This document shows, piece after piece, positions 436-6,880 of a stretch of DNA of 6,880 nucleotides. Position 1 is the stretch's first letter. The number at the start of each line of letters is the position of its first letter. The position numbers and the translations under genes are program-made. The notes below the pieces were generated by a model. The model was given only the letters and a program-made list of their open reading frames with translations, was not told the DNA's origin and did not search any database. The DNA comes from Bifidobacteriaceae bacterium. GTDB lineage: Bacteria; Actinomycetota; Actinomycetes; Actinomycetales; WQXJ01. The stretch lies in assembly GCA_031278665.1 (NCBI GenBank), contig JAITKC010000257.1:1-6880 (forward strand), in the 5' to 3' direction.

Positions 436-864
436 TCAGGCGCGCCGCGGGCGGGGGGCCGAACGGGCGTCTCGGATCAGGGCCGCGCCGGCCGCCACAA
501 AGATCAGCGCGACCGCCGCAAACAGCACCGTGGCGGCCGTCGAACCGGTCCGCTCGAGGTCGTCTTCGGCCTGGGGCGGCTGGTCGCCGGCCGTCGGCGA
601 CGCCGGGTGGGGCTCCGACGCGGTTGCGGAGGACGATGCCGACGGCGGCGCGGTGGCCGTCGGCGGCGAGGCGGACTGGACCGGGGGCCGCGTGGTCGCG
701 TCGGGAACGTCCCATTCCTCGATCACCAGGGTGATTTCGACGCCGCCGTCATGAATTGGGTCACCCGCCGCGGTGGCGGCCGCCGCCGACAGGCTGAGCC
801 CAAGGCTGACCGCAAGCGCCGCCGCGGCGATCCGCCTGGTCCTGCGGCGCGGCCCGGCGGTCAT
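436..864 (-). CDS. Small cell-wall-anchored protein with LPXTG-like signal (CscD-like)
   Basis: A 142-residue protein. The signal peptide is basic at the start (GPRRRTRR), hydrophobic at about 12-31, with a likely cut after ATA (32) or ATAA (33). A short beta-strand-like segment follows (GGVEITLVIEEWDVP, 40-54). A Pro/Ser/Thr/Ala-rich stretch at 55-100 looks like a wall-spanning stalk. The C-terminus is a sorting signal: LERTG (103-107), a hydrophobic helix (about 110-130) and a basic tail (RDARSAPRPRRA). Sortase would be expected to cut within TG and link the protein to peptidoglycan; Glu in place of the usual Pro is atypical. The ATG at 864 overlaps the preceding stop as ATGA, and GGAGAGGG (878-871) lies 6 bases upstream, which fixes the start. 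Architecture and position match the small LPXTG proteins of Csc/WxL clusters. The open frame runs further upstream, but that part is an Arg-rich shadow of the DUF916-type gene. Confidence 0.8.
   Translation of the reverse strand: MTAGPRRRTRRIAAAALAVSLGLSLSAAAATAAGDPIHDGGVEITLVIEEWDVPDATTRPPVQSASPPTATAPPSASSSATASEPHPASPTAGDQPPQAEDDLERTGSTAATVLFAAVALIFVAAGAALIRDARSAPRPRRA
861..864 (-). promoter_or_regulatory. ATGA stop/start overlap coupling the last two cluster genes
   Basis: The TGA that ends the DUF916-type gene and the ATG that starts the LPXTG-like gene share bases in an ATGA overlap. A Shine-Dalgarno-like GGAGAGGG inside the upstream gene (878-871) serves the second start. This arrangement normally gives translational coupling and fits products needed in linked amounts. 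Confidence 0.75.
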
Positions 865-2168
865 GGCGCGCCCTCTCCGGCGCCGCCCGGCCCTCGAGCG
901 GGGCCCGATTCGGCGGCGCCGGGCGCGCGCCCCGGAACGGCGGCGGGGGCGGCGGCATCGGCGCGGGCGGCGGCATCGGCGGGTGTCGGGGTGGCCTGAG
1001 CGGCCTCGCGGCGGCCCTCTTGGCGGGCGCCCTCCAATAGCGCCGCCAACTGTTTGGCGCGCCGGCGTCTGCCCCGCCACCAGGCCACGACCAGCGTCAA
1101 CGCGGCCGCGAACAGGGCCAACTGGCTCCACGGCACGGCCACGACTGGCAATTTGACGCCGCTCAGGGGGGCCGTCAGACCGGGCTCTTCGACAATCGCC
1201 TGGCCGGCGGCCAAGACCTCGACGTCCAAAATCCCCCACGGCCAAACCCGGGCCACTGTCAAAGAGCCGGACCGCGACTCGCCCGGCGCGAACTCTTTGA
1301 CCGGTTCGCCCACCGCCTCCCCGGCGGTCCCGAACCAGAATCCGACCGTGGCCGAGGGCGACGCGCCCAAGCGCGTGTTTCCGCTGTTGGTGACCGTGTA
1401 GTCGATCTGGACTCGGCCGGGGCTAAACGGGTTCCAGGCGCCCAGGTAATTGGCCTGCGCCTCGACTCGCAAAGCCGGATCGAGTTCGCCTAAAACGCGC
1501 ACCATGACGCGAAAGCCGACCCGGGCCTCAAGGCCGACCCCGGCGCCCGACTCGTCAGTCGAGCTCCTCACCACCGACGCGGCGACTCCGGCCGGATGAT
1601 CCCCCGGCGTGGCGTTGGCCGGAACCCGCACCGTCAATCGCACGGCTTGGGTGGCGTGCGCCGGGATGGTCACCGAAGCCGGAATGCTGATCCAGGCGCC
1701 GGCGTCGACCGACTCCTCAGATGAAGTCAGCATGTTGAATCTGCCTCGCTTGTTGAAGTAGCCGTCGGCGGCTTTCAGACTGAACTCCAGTTCGTGATCC
1801 GAGTAATTGCTGACCACCATGAAGTCGCTCGCCTCGGCGCCGGGGTCAAGGCTCAACTCCACCCAGGACCGGCCGTCGGCGTTGCCCTCCGAGTCGCCCG
1901 GCCGGACCGACCAGGTCGAACTCGAGCCCTGATCCGATTCGTCCGCCGGGTCTTCAGCCGCCCAGGCGGGCGCCGCCGACAAGAGCGCGAGCGCGGACGC
2001 CAACAATCCGGCGGCCGCCAACGTCAAACCTCTCGCCGCCGCCCGCCGCAGCGCCGACACCGCCGGCCGCCAGCCCGGCGCCCCGCGCGACCCCGGCGCC
2101 CCGGCGCGCGGTCGCGACGCCGACCGGGCCTGGCCCGGTGGCCGGCGTCGCGACCGCCTCACCGCCAC
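861..2168 (-). CDS. DUF916/WxL-interacting-type membrane-anchored surface protein
   Basis: 435 residues counted from the GTG at 2168. The GTG two codons later (2162) has better spacing, 9 rather than 3 bases, from the GAGG at 2175-2172 and may be the true start. A long Arg-rich leader (1-47) precedes a hydrophobic core (48-68) and a likely cut after AWA (70). Residues 86-200 look like DUF916: WSVRPG, then WVELSLDPG, then a strand with VVSNYSDHELEFSL, and VPANATPGDHPAGV (182-195). Residues 215-325 form a second beta-sandwich, like the second domain of WxL-interacting proteins. One membrane helix lies at about 346-364, followed by the stop-transfer RGRRRR and a 65-residue Ala/Pro/Arg-rich cytoplasmic tail. 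In the known family the first domain binds peptidoglycan and the protein pairs with WxL partners. The gene begins 9 bases after the WxL-like stop and overlaps the next gene by 4 bases, so the three are probably co-translated. Confidence 0.85.
   Translation of the reverse strand: MAVRRSRRRPPGQARSASRPRAGAPGSRGAPGWRPAVSALRRAAARGLTLAAAGLLASALALLSAAPAWAAEDPADESDQGSSSTWSVRPGDSEGNADGRSWVELSLDPGAEASDFMVVSNYSDHELEFSLKAADGYFNKRGRFNMLTSSEESVDAGAWISIPASVTIPAHATQAVRLTVRVPANATPGDHPAGVAASVVRSSTDESGAGVGLEARVGFRVMVRVLGELDPALRVEAQANYLGAWNPFSPGRVQIDYTVTNSGNTRLGASPSATVGFWFGTAGEAVGEPVKEFAPGESRSGSLTVARVWPWGILDVEVLAAGQAIVEEPGLTAPLSGVKLPVVAVPWSQLALFAAALTLVVAWWRGRRRRAKQLAALLEGARQEGRREAAQATPTPADAAARADAAAPAAVPGRAPGAAESGPARGPGGAGEGAP
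943..978. repeat. 18-bp tandem duplication in the DUF916-type gene tail
   Basis: Two adjacent 18-base units (943-960 and 961-978) differ at one position (946 versus 964). On the minus strand they encode consecutive ADAAAR/ADAAAP-like hexapeptides in the cytoplasmic tail of the DUF916-type protein. The length is a multiple of three and keeps the frame. It looks like a recent slippage event in a low-complexity region, probably without functional effect. Confidence 0.7.
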
Positions 2169-2177
2169 TCGCCTCGT

Positions 2178-2828
2178 TTACTCGAATAGCGACAGGGTCA
2201 GAATCGACGTGTACTTGCCCTCCGCGATACTCGCCGGGGTGTGCAGCACCAATTCCGCCTCGGCGTGCCAGCCCGGCGAGTCCAATTCCTCGTAAGCGTC
2301 GACCAGCGCCGAATCTTCGGCCAGGTAAAGCAGGTCGGCGCCATCGGACAAGCCGTCCGAACCCAAGTCGGCCAAAGCGGTCGGAACGTCCTCGCCCACG
2401 GAAATCAGCGGCAACCCGGTGTCATCGTCGACCGGCGCGTTGAGCGCCCAAGGCGACCAGCCAAGGTTCGCAGCCGGGATGGTGACCGGTGTCGGGGTTT
2501 GGTCGCCGACAAAGTCTTCGGCCTGACCCATCACGTACCAGAACGCGCCGTCCGGTATTTCGTCGCGTGTGTCGGTGACCGTCACAGTCGGCAAAGTGGC
2601 CGTGAAGTGAAGCCGCACGTCGCTCGACAACGCTTCGTCCTTGACCAACTCGACCTCGTCATCGGCCACCGACAGCGCCAGCGTGCCGCTCGGCGCCCCC
2701 GCCACCTCGAACCACACTTCGACGCCGTCTTCTTCGACCAGGTCTTCCGCCGATGCCGCCTGCCCGACTAGCGCCACCACGCCGGCCGCGAACAGCCCCA
2801 CCGCCAGTTTCATACTGCGTGCTCTCAT
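2178..2828 (-). CDS. WxL-like secreted cell-surface protein
   Basis: A 216-residue exported protein. The signal peptide covers 1-27, with a hydrophobic core at 8-22 and a likely cut after ASA. The mature part is acidic and beta-rich. It resembles WxL domains, which bind cell wall peptidoglycan non-covalently in Firmicutes. TVTVTDTRDE (81-90) is followed by FWYVMGQAEDF (96-106), matching the pattern of a D-x-R turn, a tryptophan strand and a dF motif; IPAANLGWSP (117-126) follows. The C-terminus has YTSILTLSL (206-214), which fits the distal YxxxLTWxL motif except that Leu replaces Trp. The protein stops two residues later. The first motif reads W-Y-V rather than W-x-L. It is the first gene of a three-gene cluster whose partners are the other known Csc/WxL components, which strengthens the call. 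Its substrate and partner are unknown. Confidence 0.78.
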   Translation of the reverse strand: MRARSMKLAVGLFAAGVVALVGQAASAEDLVEEDGVEVWFEVAGAPSGTLALSVADDEVELVKDEALSSDVRLHFTATLPTVTVTDTRDEIPDGAFWYVMGQAEDFVGDQTPTPVTIPAANLGWSPWALNAPVDDDTGLPLISVGEDVPTALADLGSDGLSDGADLLYLAEDSALVDAYEELDSPGWHAEAELVLHTPASIAEGKYTSILTLSLFE

Positions 2829-2956: not shown

Positions 2957-5900
2957 CTAGCCGCAGCTAAACGCGCTGTAGACGGTGGCGCCGTCGGCCA
3001 GCCTGGCCCGGCCGGCCACACCGGCCGAATAGCTGACCGCGCCCGCCGCAACCGAAGTCGCCTTCGTGTTCAACGACACCGAATTGGCCTTGCCCGGAGC
3101 CACCGCCAAGTACTCCTTGGCGCCGGTCACAGGGCTGGTCACGGAGACGTCGATGCTCACCGTTCCGATGTTCTTGACCGCCGTCGTCAAGTAGACCTTG
3201 CCGGCCAGGCACTTCTGCGAAACCGTCAGCTGAACCTCGGCGGCCAAAGCCAGCCCGGCCCGGGCCGAGTTCAACGCGGTCAGCGCCTGGTTGATGGCGG
3301 CCTGCGACGGGGCTTCGGCCGCGAGCACGGTCTGCGCCTGCGACAACGCCGAGGCGAAGGCGTCCCAGTTGGCAGCCTTGTGGTCGGCCTGCTCCAAGAC
3401 CTGGGCGGCGGCCACCGCCGCCGCCAAAGCGCCGGAGTCGGTGATCGCGCCTTCCAGGCCCAGCCAAGCCTCCGGATCGGAGACCGCGACAGCGGCCAGC
3501 TTCTCCGAATAGTCCTGGTTCCAGAGCAGCGGGTTGTGGTTGCGCCGCCACGAGTCGTAGTCGCGCAAGCCCCAGAAGGTGATCCGGTCGATCGAGCTGG
3601 CGTACCGCTTGTAGACCGCGAAGTACTCGGCGTAGCGCTGGGCCTGGATCTGCTCCAACTCGGCGCGATTCGCGATCTTGCCGACCCAGTACACCTCGCC
3701 GGTCCGGTAATACAGTTCCGAAGCGGTCGGGTCGACCAGATCGCGGTACACGTTCGCGTTGTTGTTATTGGCGCCCTGCGGTTGCGAGTCCCAATTCTGG
3801 AAGACGAACAGGTCCAGTTCGCTGGCCGAGATGTCGAAACCGGCGTCGATCAGTTTGATGATGCTGGCCTCGACCGAGGCCTCGCCGGCCGGCGCGCCAG
3901 CCTCGACCAGGTCGCCGAAGGCGGTTTGGCCGGCCGGCGCGAAGGCCGGCGTCTGCGCGATGTAGTTGTGGGCCTGCATTCCGATGCCCTCGATCAGTTG
4001 ACGGGGATCTTCGGGGTGTTCGGCCGCGTACTTCGCGTTGAACTCGGTGGCCATCGCGATCACGGCGTTGACCTTGCCGGACTCGAACAAGTTGAAGTCG
4101 TTGTAGTACAGCTTGACGTCCGGGTCGTACTTGCGGGCCAGCACGAAGGCGTCGTAGATGTGGTCGCCGTCCTTCTCCCCGGCTTCCGCGTTGGCGCCGC
4201 TCCGGTAGGCGGTCAGCCAGCCGGAGGTGCCGCTGGAGGCGCCGCGCAAGACCGTCCGCCAGTCCTGGGTGGCCGGATCGAAGCTGGCGACCGAGTCTTG
4301 GAAAGCCTCGTTGACCACGTCCCAAGAGATCAGTTGGCCGTCGAAGTGCTCGGCCACGGTCTTGATGTAGATCTCCATATTGCGTTTTGCCAGTTCCCTG
4401 GTGCCGCCGGTCGCCCCGGAGTAGAAACTGGACGGGGTTTGATCATGCCAGACCAGCACATGGCCGTGAACAGCCATGTCGTTGGCCTGGGCGGTGGCCA
4501 CCAAAGCGTCCGCCCGCGCGAAGTTGGCGCAAGTCAACACCCCGGCCGCGGAGATGGCCGAGCAAAGCTGGTTCGGCTTCATGTAGTTCTCCGCCGTCAA
4601 CACGTTGAAGTGCTCGGTCAGCAAGGCCTGGCGGGTCTCGTTGGTGAAGTCGGTCGGCGAGGAGTAGACGTTGCCGACCAGGAACGAATCCGCGTAGGTG
4701 TCCTTCAGCCCGTCGATCGGCTGGCGGAACGACGCCGTGATCTCGACGTCGGCCGACGGCATCGCGAACGTCAACGGGTTGGTCCTGGCGCCAAGGTAAC
4801 CGAGCGCCGGGGCCGTCCAACCGATCCACTGATAACCCTCGGCGGCGCTCGCCGTCAACGCGATGGTCTCGCCCGGCATATAGGCCCCGGACTGGCTGCC
4901 GGCCACTTCGCCGCCCTCGCCGGCGGCCACCGTCAACTGGTAGGTGACCGCGTCGAAGCTGAGCGATTGGACGCGCGCCGTGACGGCGCTGCCCTCCGCC
5001 CCGAGGACCAGGATCACGTCGTGGACGCCGCTGATCGGTTCGGTCAGCGCCACCAGGGCGGTTTCGGCCGTCGCGCTGGTGGACACCGCGATGGCCGCCG
5101 CCGGGTCGCTCACCAGGTGGTCGGCGTCTTGCTGGTCCAAGTAGACGGCGACCGGAATGGACCCGTTGGCGGAGGCGTTCGAGCAGGTCAGCTCCAGGCT
5201 GTTCAGCCCGGCGCCGAAGTCGAGGTTCGCGTAGGTCACGGTGGCCTCGGTGTTTCCGCTGGTGGCGGTGGTGGCGCCGGGGATGTCATAAGTCTGGAGG
5301 TAGGAGTTCTCCAGGCTGATTCCCTTGTTGGTGTAGGCGCCCATGACGTCGGCATAAGTGTGGGCCGGGATCACGGAGGTGGCGTCGACGTGGTAGGAGT
5401 CGTCCTTGGAGACTTTGCCCGTGAAGGTGTAGATCGAGTTCGCGGCGATCGTCAGGGGCTGGGCCAGGTCGACCGCCGTCGGCGCGTCGTCGACCACGTT
5501 GACCTCGGCGTCGGTCAGGTACTGCTGCGCGCCGGTGACGTTGTAGCCGGGGAACGCCAGGGAGACAGTTTGCTCGGTGGCGCCGTTGGCCGCGACGATG
5601 GCGAAGTCGTGGCTGCCGTCAGCGTTCGCCTCCGGGTTGATGAACGCGGTGGTCACCAGGTCGCTCGGGTTGCCGCTGCCGGTGTCGGCGCCGCTGGCGA
5701 AGTCGCGCTGGTCGTGGTTGACCCGCTTCCAGCCGGGCCGGACGAACTTCGAGTAGTGGCCCAGCGCGTAGGCGGTCCGCGAGATCTCGTAGTCGCCGGT
5801 GAACTCGCCGCTGATGACGCCGGTGTTGTTGTTGCCGGAGGTGGAGTTGACCAAATAGATCAGGTTCTCGGCGCTGACCGTCCGGGTGGTTCCGGCGCTC

Positions 5901-6880
5901 GAGTTGGATAGCTTCTTATAGCCGAACGCCCACCAGTGGCCGGTGGCGCTCATTTCGGCGATGCCGAGTTGGCGCCCCCAATATTGCGCCCAGGCGACGC
6001 CGGTCGTCATGGTGTTGGCCTGGGAGGACATCAGGGAAATCTCGGTCAGCCAGATCTGCTGGTCGTTCTGCTGGGCCCGGGCCTTGCTCTCCGCCAGGAC
6101 TGTGCCGCCTTGGGCGCGGTTCCAGCCATAAGAGTGGAACGCCTGGTCGTCCAGGTATTGGAGGGCGTCGGGATCGCGGAACACGCCGGTCCCGCGGCCC
6201 TCGCCGCTGGCGGCGCCGCCGGTGAAGATGTTGAGGTTGTAGCTCATCGGCTCGACGCCTTGGAGTTTGGTGGTGATACCGCGCTCGACGAATTCGGCGC
6301 CGATGATCTTCAAGATGTCGGCGTAGGTGCCGGCGTCCCAATAGGACGACGAGTAGTTGCCGGAGTGGTTCGGCTCGTTGGACAGCGAGAACCCGTACAG
6401 CGGGATGCCGTAGACCTTTTCATAGCCTTGGACCATGTCCGCCACGTAATCCGCCAGCTCTTCGTACATCTCTGGCGCGACTCGGCCGTCGTAAGTGTGC
6501 GAGCCGGCCTCTTTGAGCCACAGCGCCGGGCTCCACATGGCGGTGACGAACTTGATCTCGTCGCCGTTGGCGTCGGCGTAATCTTGGGCGCTCTTCATCG
6601 CCCAGACCTGGCCGCGGTCGACCGGTGACTGGGTGAAGCCCCATTTGGCGAAGTCGGCGTCGGAGCTGAGGGTGTCCTCGCCGCCTTCGCGCGGGTAATC
6701 TTCGGAGTCGAAGAACCAGCGATAGTTGTCGCCGTCGAAGTTGGAAACCCCGTCTTCGTCGAATGTGCTTTCGACTTCTTCAGCCTCTGCCGCGGTCTTG
6801 AACGATGGCGTGGGGCCGTCGAACCAGAACCCGTAAGTGCTCCAGCGGTAGTCGCCGATGTCCGGTTGGTCGCCCAACAT
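2957..6880 (-). CDS. Secreted modular xylanase, GH30-type + CBM6-like + GH10 (5' end outside window)
   Basis: Extracellular enzyme predicted to cut the beta-1,4-xylan backbone with two catalytic domains. Residues are numbered from the window edge. GH30-type barrel about 1-390: acid/base E169 in SLSNEP, nucleophile E280 in WLTEIS, and the HYSKFVRPG element at 375-383 that leads into the family's beta-sandwich (to about 490). CBM6-like module about 505-645, with YANLDFG and GVHDVILVLG. InlB B-repeat-like domain 646-719. GH10 barrel about 722-1140: HGH at 805-807, acid/base E858 in WDVVNEAF, nucleophile E1021 in SELD, late FWGLRD. FIVAR-like helices about 1141-1213. Final beta-rich domain 1214-1307 with C1224 and C1306, a likely disulfide. 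No LPXTG or membrane segment is present. The Met at the edge is internal: the signal peptide and the first strands of the GH30 barrel are missing. The stop is TAG. Domain assignments come from recognised motifs, not a search. Confidence 0.93.
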   Translation of the reverse strand: MLGDQPDIGDYRWSTYGFWFDGPTPSFKTAAEAEEVESTFDEDGVSNFDGDNYRWFFDSEDYPREGGEDTLSSDADFAKWGFTQSPVDRGQVWAMKSAQDYADANGDEIKFVTAMWSPALWLKEAGSHTYDGRVAPEMYEELADYVADMVQGYEKVYGIPLYGFSLSNEPNHSGNYSSSYWDAGTYADILKIIGAEFVERGITTKLQGVEPMSYNLNIFTGGAASGEGRGTGVFRDPDALQYLDDQAFHSYGWNRAQGGTVLAESKARAQQNDQQIWLTEISLMSSQANTMTTGVAWAQYWGRQLGIAEMSATGHWWAFGYKKLSNSSAGTTRTVSAENLIYLVNSTSGNNNTGVISGEFTGDYEISRTAYALGHYSKFVRPGWKRVNHDQRDFASGADTGSGNPSDLVTTAFINPEANADGSHDFAIVAANGATEQTVSLAFPGYNVTGAQQYLTDAEVNVVDDAPTAVDLAQPLTIAANSIYTFTGKVSKDDSYHVDATSVIPAHTYADVMGAYTNKGISLENSYLQTYDIPGATTATSGNTEATVTYANLDFGAGLNSLELTCSNASANGSIPVAVYLDQQDADHLVSDPAAAIAVSTSATAETALVALTEPISGVHDVILVLGAEGSAVTARVQSLSFDAVTYQLTVAAGEGGEVAGSQSGAYMPGETIALTASAAEGYQWIGWTAPALGYLGARTNPLTFAMPSADVEITASFRQPIDGLKDTYADSFLVGNVYSSPTDFTNETRQALLTEHFNVLTAENYMKPNQLCSAISAAGVLTCANFARADALVATAQANDMAVHGHVLVWHDQTPSSFYSGATGGTRELAKRNMEIYIKTVAEHFDGQLISWDVVNEAFQDSVASFDPATQDWRTVLRGASSGTSGWLTAYRSGANAEAGEKDGDHIYDAFVLARKYDPDVKLYYNDFNLFESGKVNAVIAMATEFNAKYAAEHPEDPRQLIEGIGMQAHNYIAQTPAFAPAGQTAFGDLVEAGAPAGEASVEASIIKLIDAGFDISASELDLFVFQNWDSQPQGANNNNANVYRDLVDPTASELYYRTGEVYWVGKIANRAELEQIQAQRYAEYFAVYKRYASSIDRITFWGLRDYDSWRRNHNPLLWNQDYSEKLAAVAVSDPEAWLGLEGAITDSGALAAAVAAAQVLEQADHKAANWDAFASALSQAQTVLAAEAPSQAAINQALTALNSARAGLALAAEVQLTVSQKCLAGKVYLTTAVKNIGTVSIDVSVTSPVTGAKEYLAVAPGKANSVSLNTKATSVAAGAVSYSAGVAGRARLADGATVYSAFSCG

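Follow-up and report, generated by a model that had tools for sequence, protein, structure and literature searches.

A Csc-like gene cluster linked to a C-terminal enzyme domain in an actinobacterium, and its possible part in keeping a xylanase at the cell surface

INTRODUCTION

The locus described here raises the question of how a large secreted polysaccharide-degrading enzyme might be kept close to the cell that makes it. The window, by which we mean the whole 6,880-nucleotide stretch analyzed, is an entire contig (C155; JAITKC010000257.1 of assembly GCA_031278665.1) of the 2.0-Mb draft genome of a Bifidobacteriaceae bacterium (382 contigs, 74% complete). It carries four neighboring genes on its minus strand, in the order xylanase, B, A, and D, where B is a divergent WxL-family protein, A is a DUF916/WxLIP protein, and D is a small protein with a sortase signal; the predicted xylanase ends in a domain that we call CT. 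Judging from sequence and gene order, we regard as evenly balanced the case that the CT-bearing xylanase, B, A, and D form a wall-anchored assembly, similar to the cell-surface complex (Csc) of Firmicutes, that keeps the xylanase at the surface.

A preliminary description of this DNA had seen B, A, and D as three packed genes joined by a 9-base gap and an ATGA overlap, and all three genes, the spacing between B and A, and the overlap between A and D are indeed found on the minus strand. That trio stands, but the xylanase gene upstream, which is tied to it through CT, had been overlooked. The evidence shifts the center of interest from the trio to the pair of CT and B and to a strand in D that resembles one in B.

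RESULTS

Linkage of B to CT-bearing enzymes

Within the genus, we compared 16 loci with a small B, namely the window and 15 fetched loci. They were found through A, which is therefore present by selection, and two of them (L052 and L055) were picked with the CT match there already known; contigs with weaker A matches were left out (C112 and C103 of G006; C274, C135, C116, and C285 of G002; C66 of G009). By profile, all of these loci (16/16) have CT immediately upstream of B. The upstream genes themselves are varied: seven contain a glycoside hydrolase (GH) catalytic family (GH10, 20, 43, 3, 16, 95, and 101), three are F5/8-type, and others are DUF5695, GH59-C-like, or phosphatase-type or have CBM35-like or immunoglobulin-like (Ig-like) matches below the cut-off, with one lacking any match. 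In the genus as a whole, CT was matched 27 times, in 6 of 10 genomes; 15 of these copies stand directly before B and 12 elsewhere.

The pairing extends through the class to which the window belongs. In a survey of 197 genomes, with scoring limited to 15 candidates per genome for B and 26 for CT so that genes may be missed, a B-profile match was found in 38 genomes and CT in 20; small B scored above 170 bits in 12 genomes, which together have 21 such genes. Every one of these 21 genes is linked to CT genes. Fifteen lie directly downstream of CT at a distance of 51 to 410 bases, and the remaining six, all of one family, show the order B-A-CT(-CT) with CT about 5.5 kb further on. All but one of the 21 come from outside the genus of the window, and the profiles were built without these places. 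The count excludes larger proteins with weaker matches (40 to 85 bits) and B genes cut short at contig ends of genome G096, although two of the latter (L141 and L142) also adjoin CT. Records from a plasmid collection likewise place B and A near CT genes in Clavibacter phaseoli, Cellulosimicrobium protaetiae, and Nonomuraea gerenzanensis.

The preliminary description had proposed looking for the triplet in relatives. It is conserved in the genus, where D follows A or is fused to it in 11 of 14 assessable loci, but no D was seen after any of 16 A genes examined outside it; there, the tightest pair is the CT enzyme with B.

The xylanase and its CT domain

The enzyme upstream of B is predicted to be a xylanase on account of its GH10 domain (222.5 bits; Pfam) and weaker, GH30-type matches to XynC and endo-1,6-glucanase (NCBIfam), which, like a FIVAR match (Pfam), fall below the cut-off. 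In CT, the second of two conserved cysteines adjoins the last residue, and an AlphaFold2 (AF2) model of the domain has seven strands arranged as a complete sandwich (predicted local distance difference test [pLDDT], 88.5), with fold matches that include accessory domains of glycoside hydrolases. No consistent Pfam family, and no dockerin, was matched among 25 CT members scanned. Used as a query, the CT of the window retrieved only its own protein (1 of 3,765 candidates), and a Cellulosimicrobium CT matched 164 protein clusters at E<=1e-3; in the 120 listed, the domain sits on a wide range of unrelated enzymes, phosphatases and a serine protease among them. The idea that CT is a hidden WxL domain, as in CscC, was rejected, as CT and WxL profiles gave no alignment and the fold matches differ. 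A sequence search of the Protein Data Bank (PDB) turned up no WxL chain, which made a WxL hit by fold improbable from the outset.

One genome rated 100% complete, G025 (L130 to L135), has six CT genes and two PF06030 matches and no B-profile match at E<=1e-5.

B as a divergent relative of WxL domains

The B family comprises 242 protein clusters at E<=1e-3, and of the 120 listed, every one with a named organism is actinobacterial. An alignment of 70 sequences (the window and 69 of those listed) has W-x-V at the first WxL position in 70/70 and, at the second, L-x-L in 69 and I-x-L in one, with Trp-x-Leu at neither position in any of them. The Pfam WxL model (PF13731) matched 0/70 at E<=1, DUF4402 was matched weakly by 17 of the 70 (best E 0.0011), and the B of the window gave no useful match by sequence to Pfam, NCBIfam, or the PDB.

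A connection to WxL domains emerges through intermediates. By hhalign, larger actinobacterial proteins have a C-terminal domain that matches the B family (E 2.5e-25), and several of them carry the motif DxRGTNAGWxL. Of these larger proteins, 6 of 10 from the class survey (15.7 to 21.3 bits) and 3 of 7 from the genus (13.8 to 19.6 bits) match PF13731, though under its cut-off of 25; the larger proteins also align with canonical Enterococcus mundtii WxL proteins over 38 columns spanning that motif (E 2.2e-5, 76% probability). Direct comparison of B with canonical WxL proteins is weak (E 0.015). On these alignments, B is probably a divergent member of the WxL superfamily by descent, rather than a WxL protein by definition. 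The WxL-like motifs claimed in the preliminary description are thus not literally there, and the search of the Pfam WxL family that it suggested came back empty for B, while the kinship itself is retained by way of the intermediates. In L013, L019, and L032, B has a long N-terminal extension that overlaps the upstream gene in a different frame; these extensions were treated as start-site artifacts.

Three loci (L057; L058, on contig C320 of the window's own genome; and L060) encode an alkaline phosphatase that has a WxL-like domain fused at its C terminus, so that the enzyme has its own B-like domain; an A-type DUF916 gene directly follows each, and one also directly follows L088. According to one report, copper-binding Ang-2 proteins of Actinomycetota are often found near metallophosphatase and DUF916 genes (PMC12537917); as some CT matches are phosphatases, those loci may be of the same kind.

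An unpaired strand in B and its look-alike in D

The AF2 model of B (pLDDT 83.7) has no strand assigned before residue 50, and the conserved, alternating hydrophobic segment at residues 36 to 42 is left unpaired. Positions 36, 38, 40, and 42 are V, I, L, or F in 69 to 70 of the 70 aligned sequences. The model predicts an incomplete Ig-like fold for B, with an open groove that needs a strand from outside.

D consists of a signal peptide (read by eye), a B-like strand, a linker rich in P, S, T, and A, and a sorting signal. The description of D as a small LPXTG-like protein is borne out by its LERTG motif, hydrophobic stretch, and basic tail. Its position after A and an LPxTG-like signal recur in the genus, and the genome of the window has two sortase genes (PF04203 above the cut-off). 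Among the 16 small-B loci of the genus, D is separate and follows A in 10 (with a four-base overlap in 7 of these), is fused to A in one, and is absent from three, with A running off the contig in the last two. The fusion (L042, positions 6104 to 7987) joins a D-like strand, a linker, and an LSGTG sorting signal to the C terminus of A.

A strand pattern, written after the D sequences had been seen, occurs in 11/11 D proteins when cleavage sites are set by hand. An automatic cleavage rule (pattern in 6/16 B and 0/16 A) misplaced many sites, and a uniform window was used instead, giving 10/11 for D, 9/16 for B, and 0/16 for A. Pairwise similarity between D and B reached p<0.05 in 6 of 11 loci (0.054 in the window), with a combined p of 1.2e-6 if the loci are taken as independent.

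A similar relation is detectable in Firmicutes, where nine Csc clusters were fetched and seven had a small protein that could be compared (L123, L125, L126, L151, L152, L154, and L155). The mature N terminus of this small, mostly LPXTG, protein resembles that of an adjacent WxL protein at p<=0.007 in five of the seven, three of which are near-identical E. mundtii clusters. The exceptions are L154, marginal at p 0.043 in the comparison with one of the cluster's three WxL proteins, and L155 (p 0.216). The small protein of L151 has no sorting signal in its frame.

The DUF916/WxLIP protein

That A is a DUF916-type membrane protein agrees with its match to PF06030 in Pfam (32 bits, cut-off 27.3) and with a putative C-terminal membrane helix read by eye. 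All 16 aligned A proteins, the window included, match PF06030 at E<=1, and 0/16 match DUF3324 at that threshold. The A-family profile finds the solved EfmWxLIP1 weakly, in the same domain (E 0.0012), and aligns with four canonical E. mundtii WxLIP proteins over 144 columns of the first part only (hhalign E 3e-4, 40% probability). An A homologue is present in 9 of 10 genus genomes, with a B homologue adjoining most strong A matches. In the class survey, PF06030 was found in 48/197 genomes (41 above the cut-off) and 21 of 91 genera; it is present in 35 of the 38 genomes that gave a B-like match of any kind.

Features of the window

Coordinates are collected in Table 1; the signal peptides of B, A, and D were read by eye. 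Positions 1 to 115, at the contig end, hold a tandem array of a 31-base unit (3.7 copies, 94% match).

Table 1. Positions of genes, domains, and motifs in the window
Feature	Position	Strand	Description
Large predicted secreted enzyme	2957..6880	-	1307 codons; 5' end beyond contig, which stops at 6880
Parts of enzyme	2957..6880	-	GH30-like part, GH10 xylanase, InlB-type repeat, FIVAR-like stretch, C-terminal CT
CT domain	2963..3235	-	About 91 residues at extreme C terminus of xylanase; two conserved Cys
B	2178..2828	-	216 aa; divergent WxL-family protein
N-terminal strand of B	2703..2723	-	Residues 36-42, VEVWFEV; conserved alternating hydrophobic, unpaired in model
First WxL position of B	2532..2540	-	WYV, residues 97-99
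Second WxL position of B	2187..2195	-	LSL, residues 212-214
A	861..2168	-	435 aa, GTG start; DUF916/WxLIP protein, second Ig-like region, C-terminal membrane helix
WxLIP_PGBD (DUF916) domain of A	1584..1910	-	Pfam
Putative membrane helix of A	1077..1130	-	Residues 347-364, then basic residues; read by eye
D	436..864	-	142 aa; small sortase-signal protein
Strand look-alike in D	721..741	-	Residues 42-48, VEITLVI; resembles N-terminal strand of B
LERTG sorting motif of D	544..558	-	Followed by hydrophobic stretch and basic tail; read by eye

DISCUSSION

In the complex proposed here, all four proteins would be secreted, and the strand of D would fill the groove of B and so tie B covalently to peptidoglycan. 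The DUF916 domain of A may keep B close to the membrane or wall, and B, or the assembly of B, A, and D, would dock the CT of enzymes made beside it. We infer the docking of CT on B and the insertion of the strand from gene linkage and sequence.

One observation weighs against a strict pair of CT and B: seven of the 20 genomes with CT lack a small B, and of the 20 CT genes in these seven, the 17 whose flanks were read have no B nearby. In family f21, A adjoins B in just 1 of 9 loci. The occurrence of CT without small B could be accommodated if CT bound glycans or the wall and so retained or targeted the enzyme by itself, with B, A, and D a separate complex that is merely coexpressed with polysaccharide-degrading enzymes, and the complete sandwich of the CT model and its likeness to hydrolase accessory domains fit such an autonomous role. 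We consider this rather unlikely, as the dependence is one-sided: since CT can be found without small B and every full small B in the class survey is CT linked, in one family mostly without A, it seems to be B that relies on CT genes and not the other way round. CT is also present on phosphatases and a protease, which share no common glycan substrate, although binding to the wall would still fit.

B could alternatively be a substrate-binding protein that grips xylan or cellulose, the cassette then being an adhesion system that places the cell beside the material being digested. The enzyme in the window is a predicted xylanase, and in vitro binding to cellulose or xylan has been reported for four WxL proteins of Lactobacillus brevis (PMC9026416), from which it follows that B may also contact substrate. 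As the neighbors of B point to many likely substrates (GH20, GH43, GH3, GH16, GH95, GH101, and phosphatase-type), one polysaccharide ligand for all B proteins is unlikely, and this alternative seems improbable as the whole explanation; it is nevertheless compatible with B docking CT. That the locus is an ordinary Csc/WxL adhesin complex with a xylanase as a chance neighbor is very improbable. The component set is close to that of Csc, but the conserved neighborhood in the class survey and the fetched genus loci strongly disfavors chance, and the cluster has no large WxL protein.

If the xylanase is indeed held by B, A, and D, the arrangement would show how many actinobacteria could hold large secreted polysaccharide-degrading enzymes near the cell, and the route would be widespread, as the tag and parts of its holder occur together in distant actinobacteria too. 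CT is found on many unrelated enzymes and is without a Pfam family, and the linked B gene now provides a concrete candidate partner. The strand look-alike in D suggests a possible role for CscD, which the accessible text of the 2006 description defines by its anchor and not by its sequence (PMC1534035). WxL/WxLIP systems have been described as almost entirely confined to Lactobacillales and Bacillales (PMC10599100), a range that the PF06030 matches in the class of the window extend.

Comparison with known systems

The closest comparison is with the cscABCD clusters of Lactobacillus plantarum and other Firmicutes, for which the original description proposes a role in the use of plant polysaccharides (PMC1534035). 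Shared with these are a DUF916 protein with a C-terminal membrane helix, a small WxL-type protein beside it, and a very small sortase-anchored protein; the features given there for CscD (90 to 140 residues, a signal peptide, and an LPxTG-type signal) resemble those of D, with its 142 residues, LERTG motif, and strand. The Csc component set named in the preliminary description is thus recovered in these three parts but lacks a large WxL protein, DUF3324, and literal WxL motifs, and the Csc reading of the trio is broadly right. In place of the large WxL protein CscC stands a CT enzyme: no second B-like match was found in the fetched flanks of 16/16 genus loci, where the upstream gene ends in CT and not in WxL; the contig of the window stops at 6880. 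W-x-V and L-x-L replace the WxL motifs, and Csc is known from Bacilli, whereas this cluster is from Actinomycetota.

A also shares the PF06030 domain with the WxL/WxLIP pair (PMC10599100, PMC9772566; solved EfmWxLIP1, 9i1y, 9i25), although its second domain is not recognizable as DUF3324 (HBD) and B escapes the Pfam WxL model. In a published AlphaFold model, a WxLIP strand completes the WxL sandwich, and the N-terminal strand of WxL had already been flagged as unusual (PMC10599100, PMC9772566). WxL domains are reported to bind peptidoglycan noncovalently and to interact with their membrane partner in vitro (PMC5817068). In its predicted fold and its unpaired, conserved N-terminal strand, B is like the donor-strand pilins (CfaB, FimG, CsuA/B, and EcpA) and TasA, a likeness at the level of the common Ig-like arrangement; no usher or chaperone was recognized near B, whose neighbors are without systematic annotation.

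In cellulosomes, varied enzymes share one small terminal domain, the dockerin, and are captured through cohesins by a surface assembly. No scaffoldin with repeated receptors is seen here, the loci read having one small B each. The CT tag could nonetheless prove to be more than a variant of the known Csc kind. It is a speculative and unlikely, but conceivable, extension that CT on many enzymes is captured by wall-anchored fibers of B built by donor-strand exchange, with the sortase-fixed strand of D capping the chain and the same strand mimicry applying in the Csc clusters of Firmicutes, which would give CscD a function. Even in its simpler form, in which B docks the enzymes made beside it, the proposed complex would have CT work on varied enzymes much as the dockerin does.
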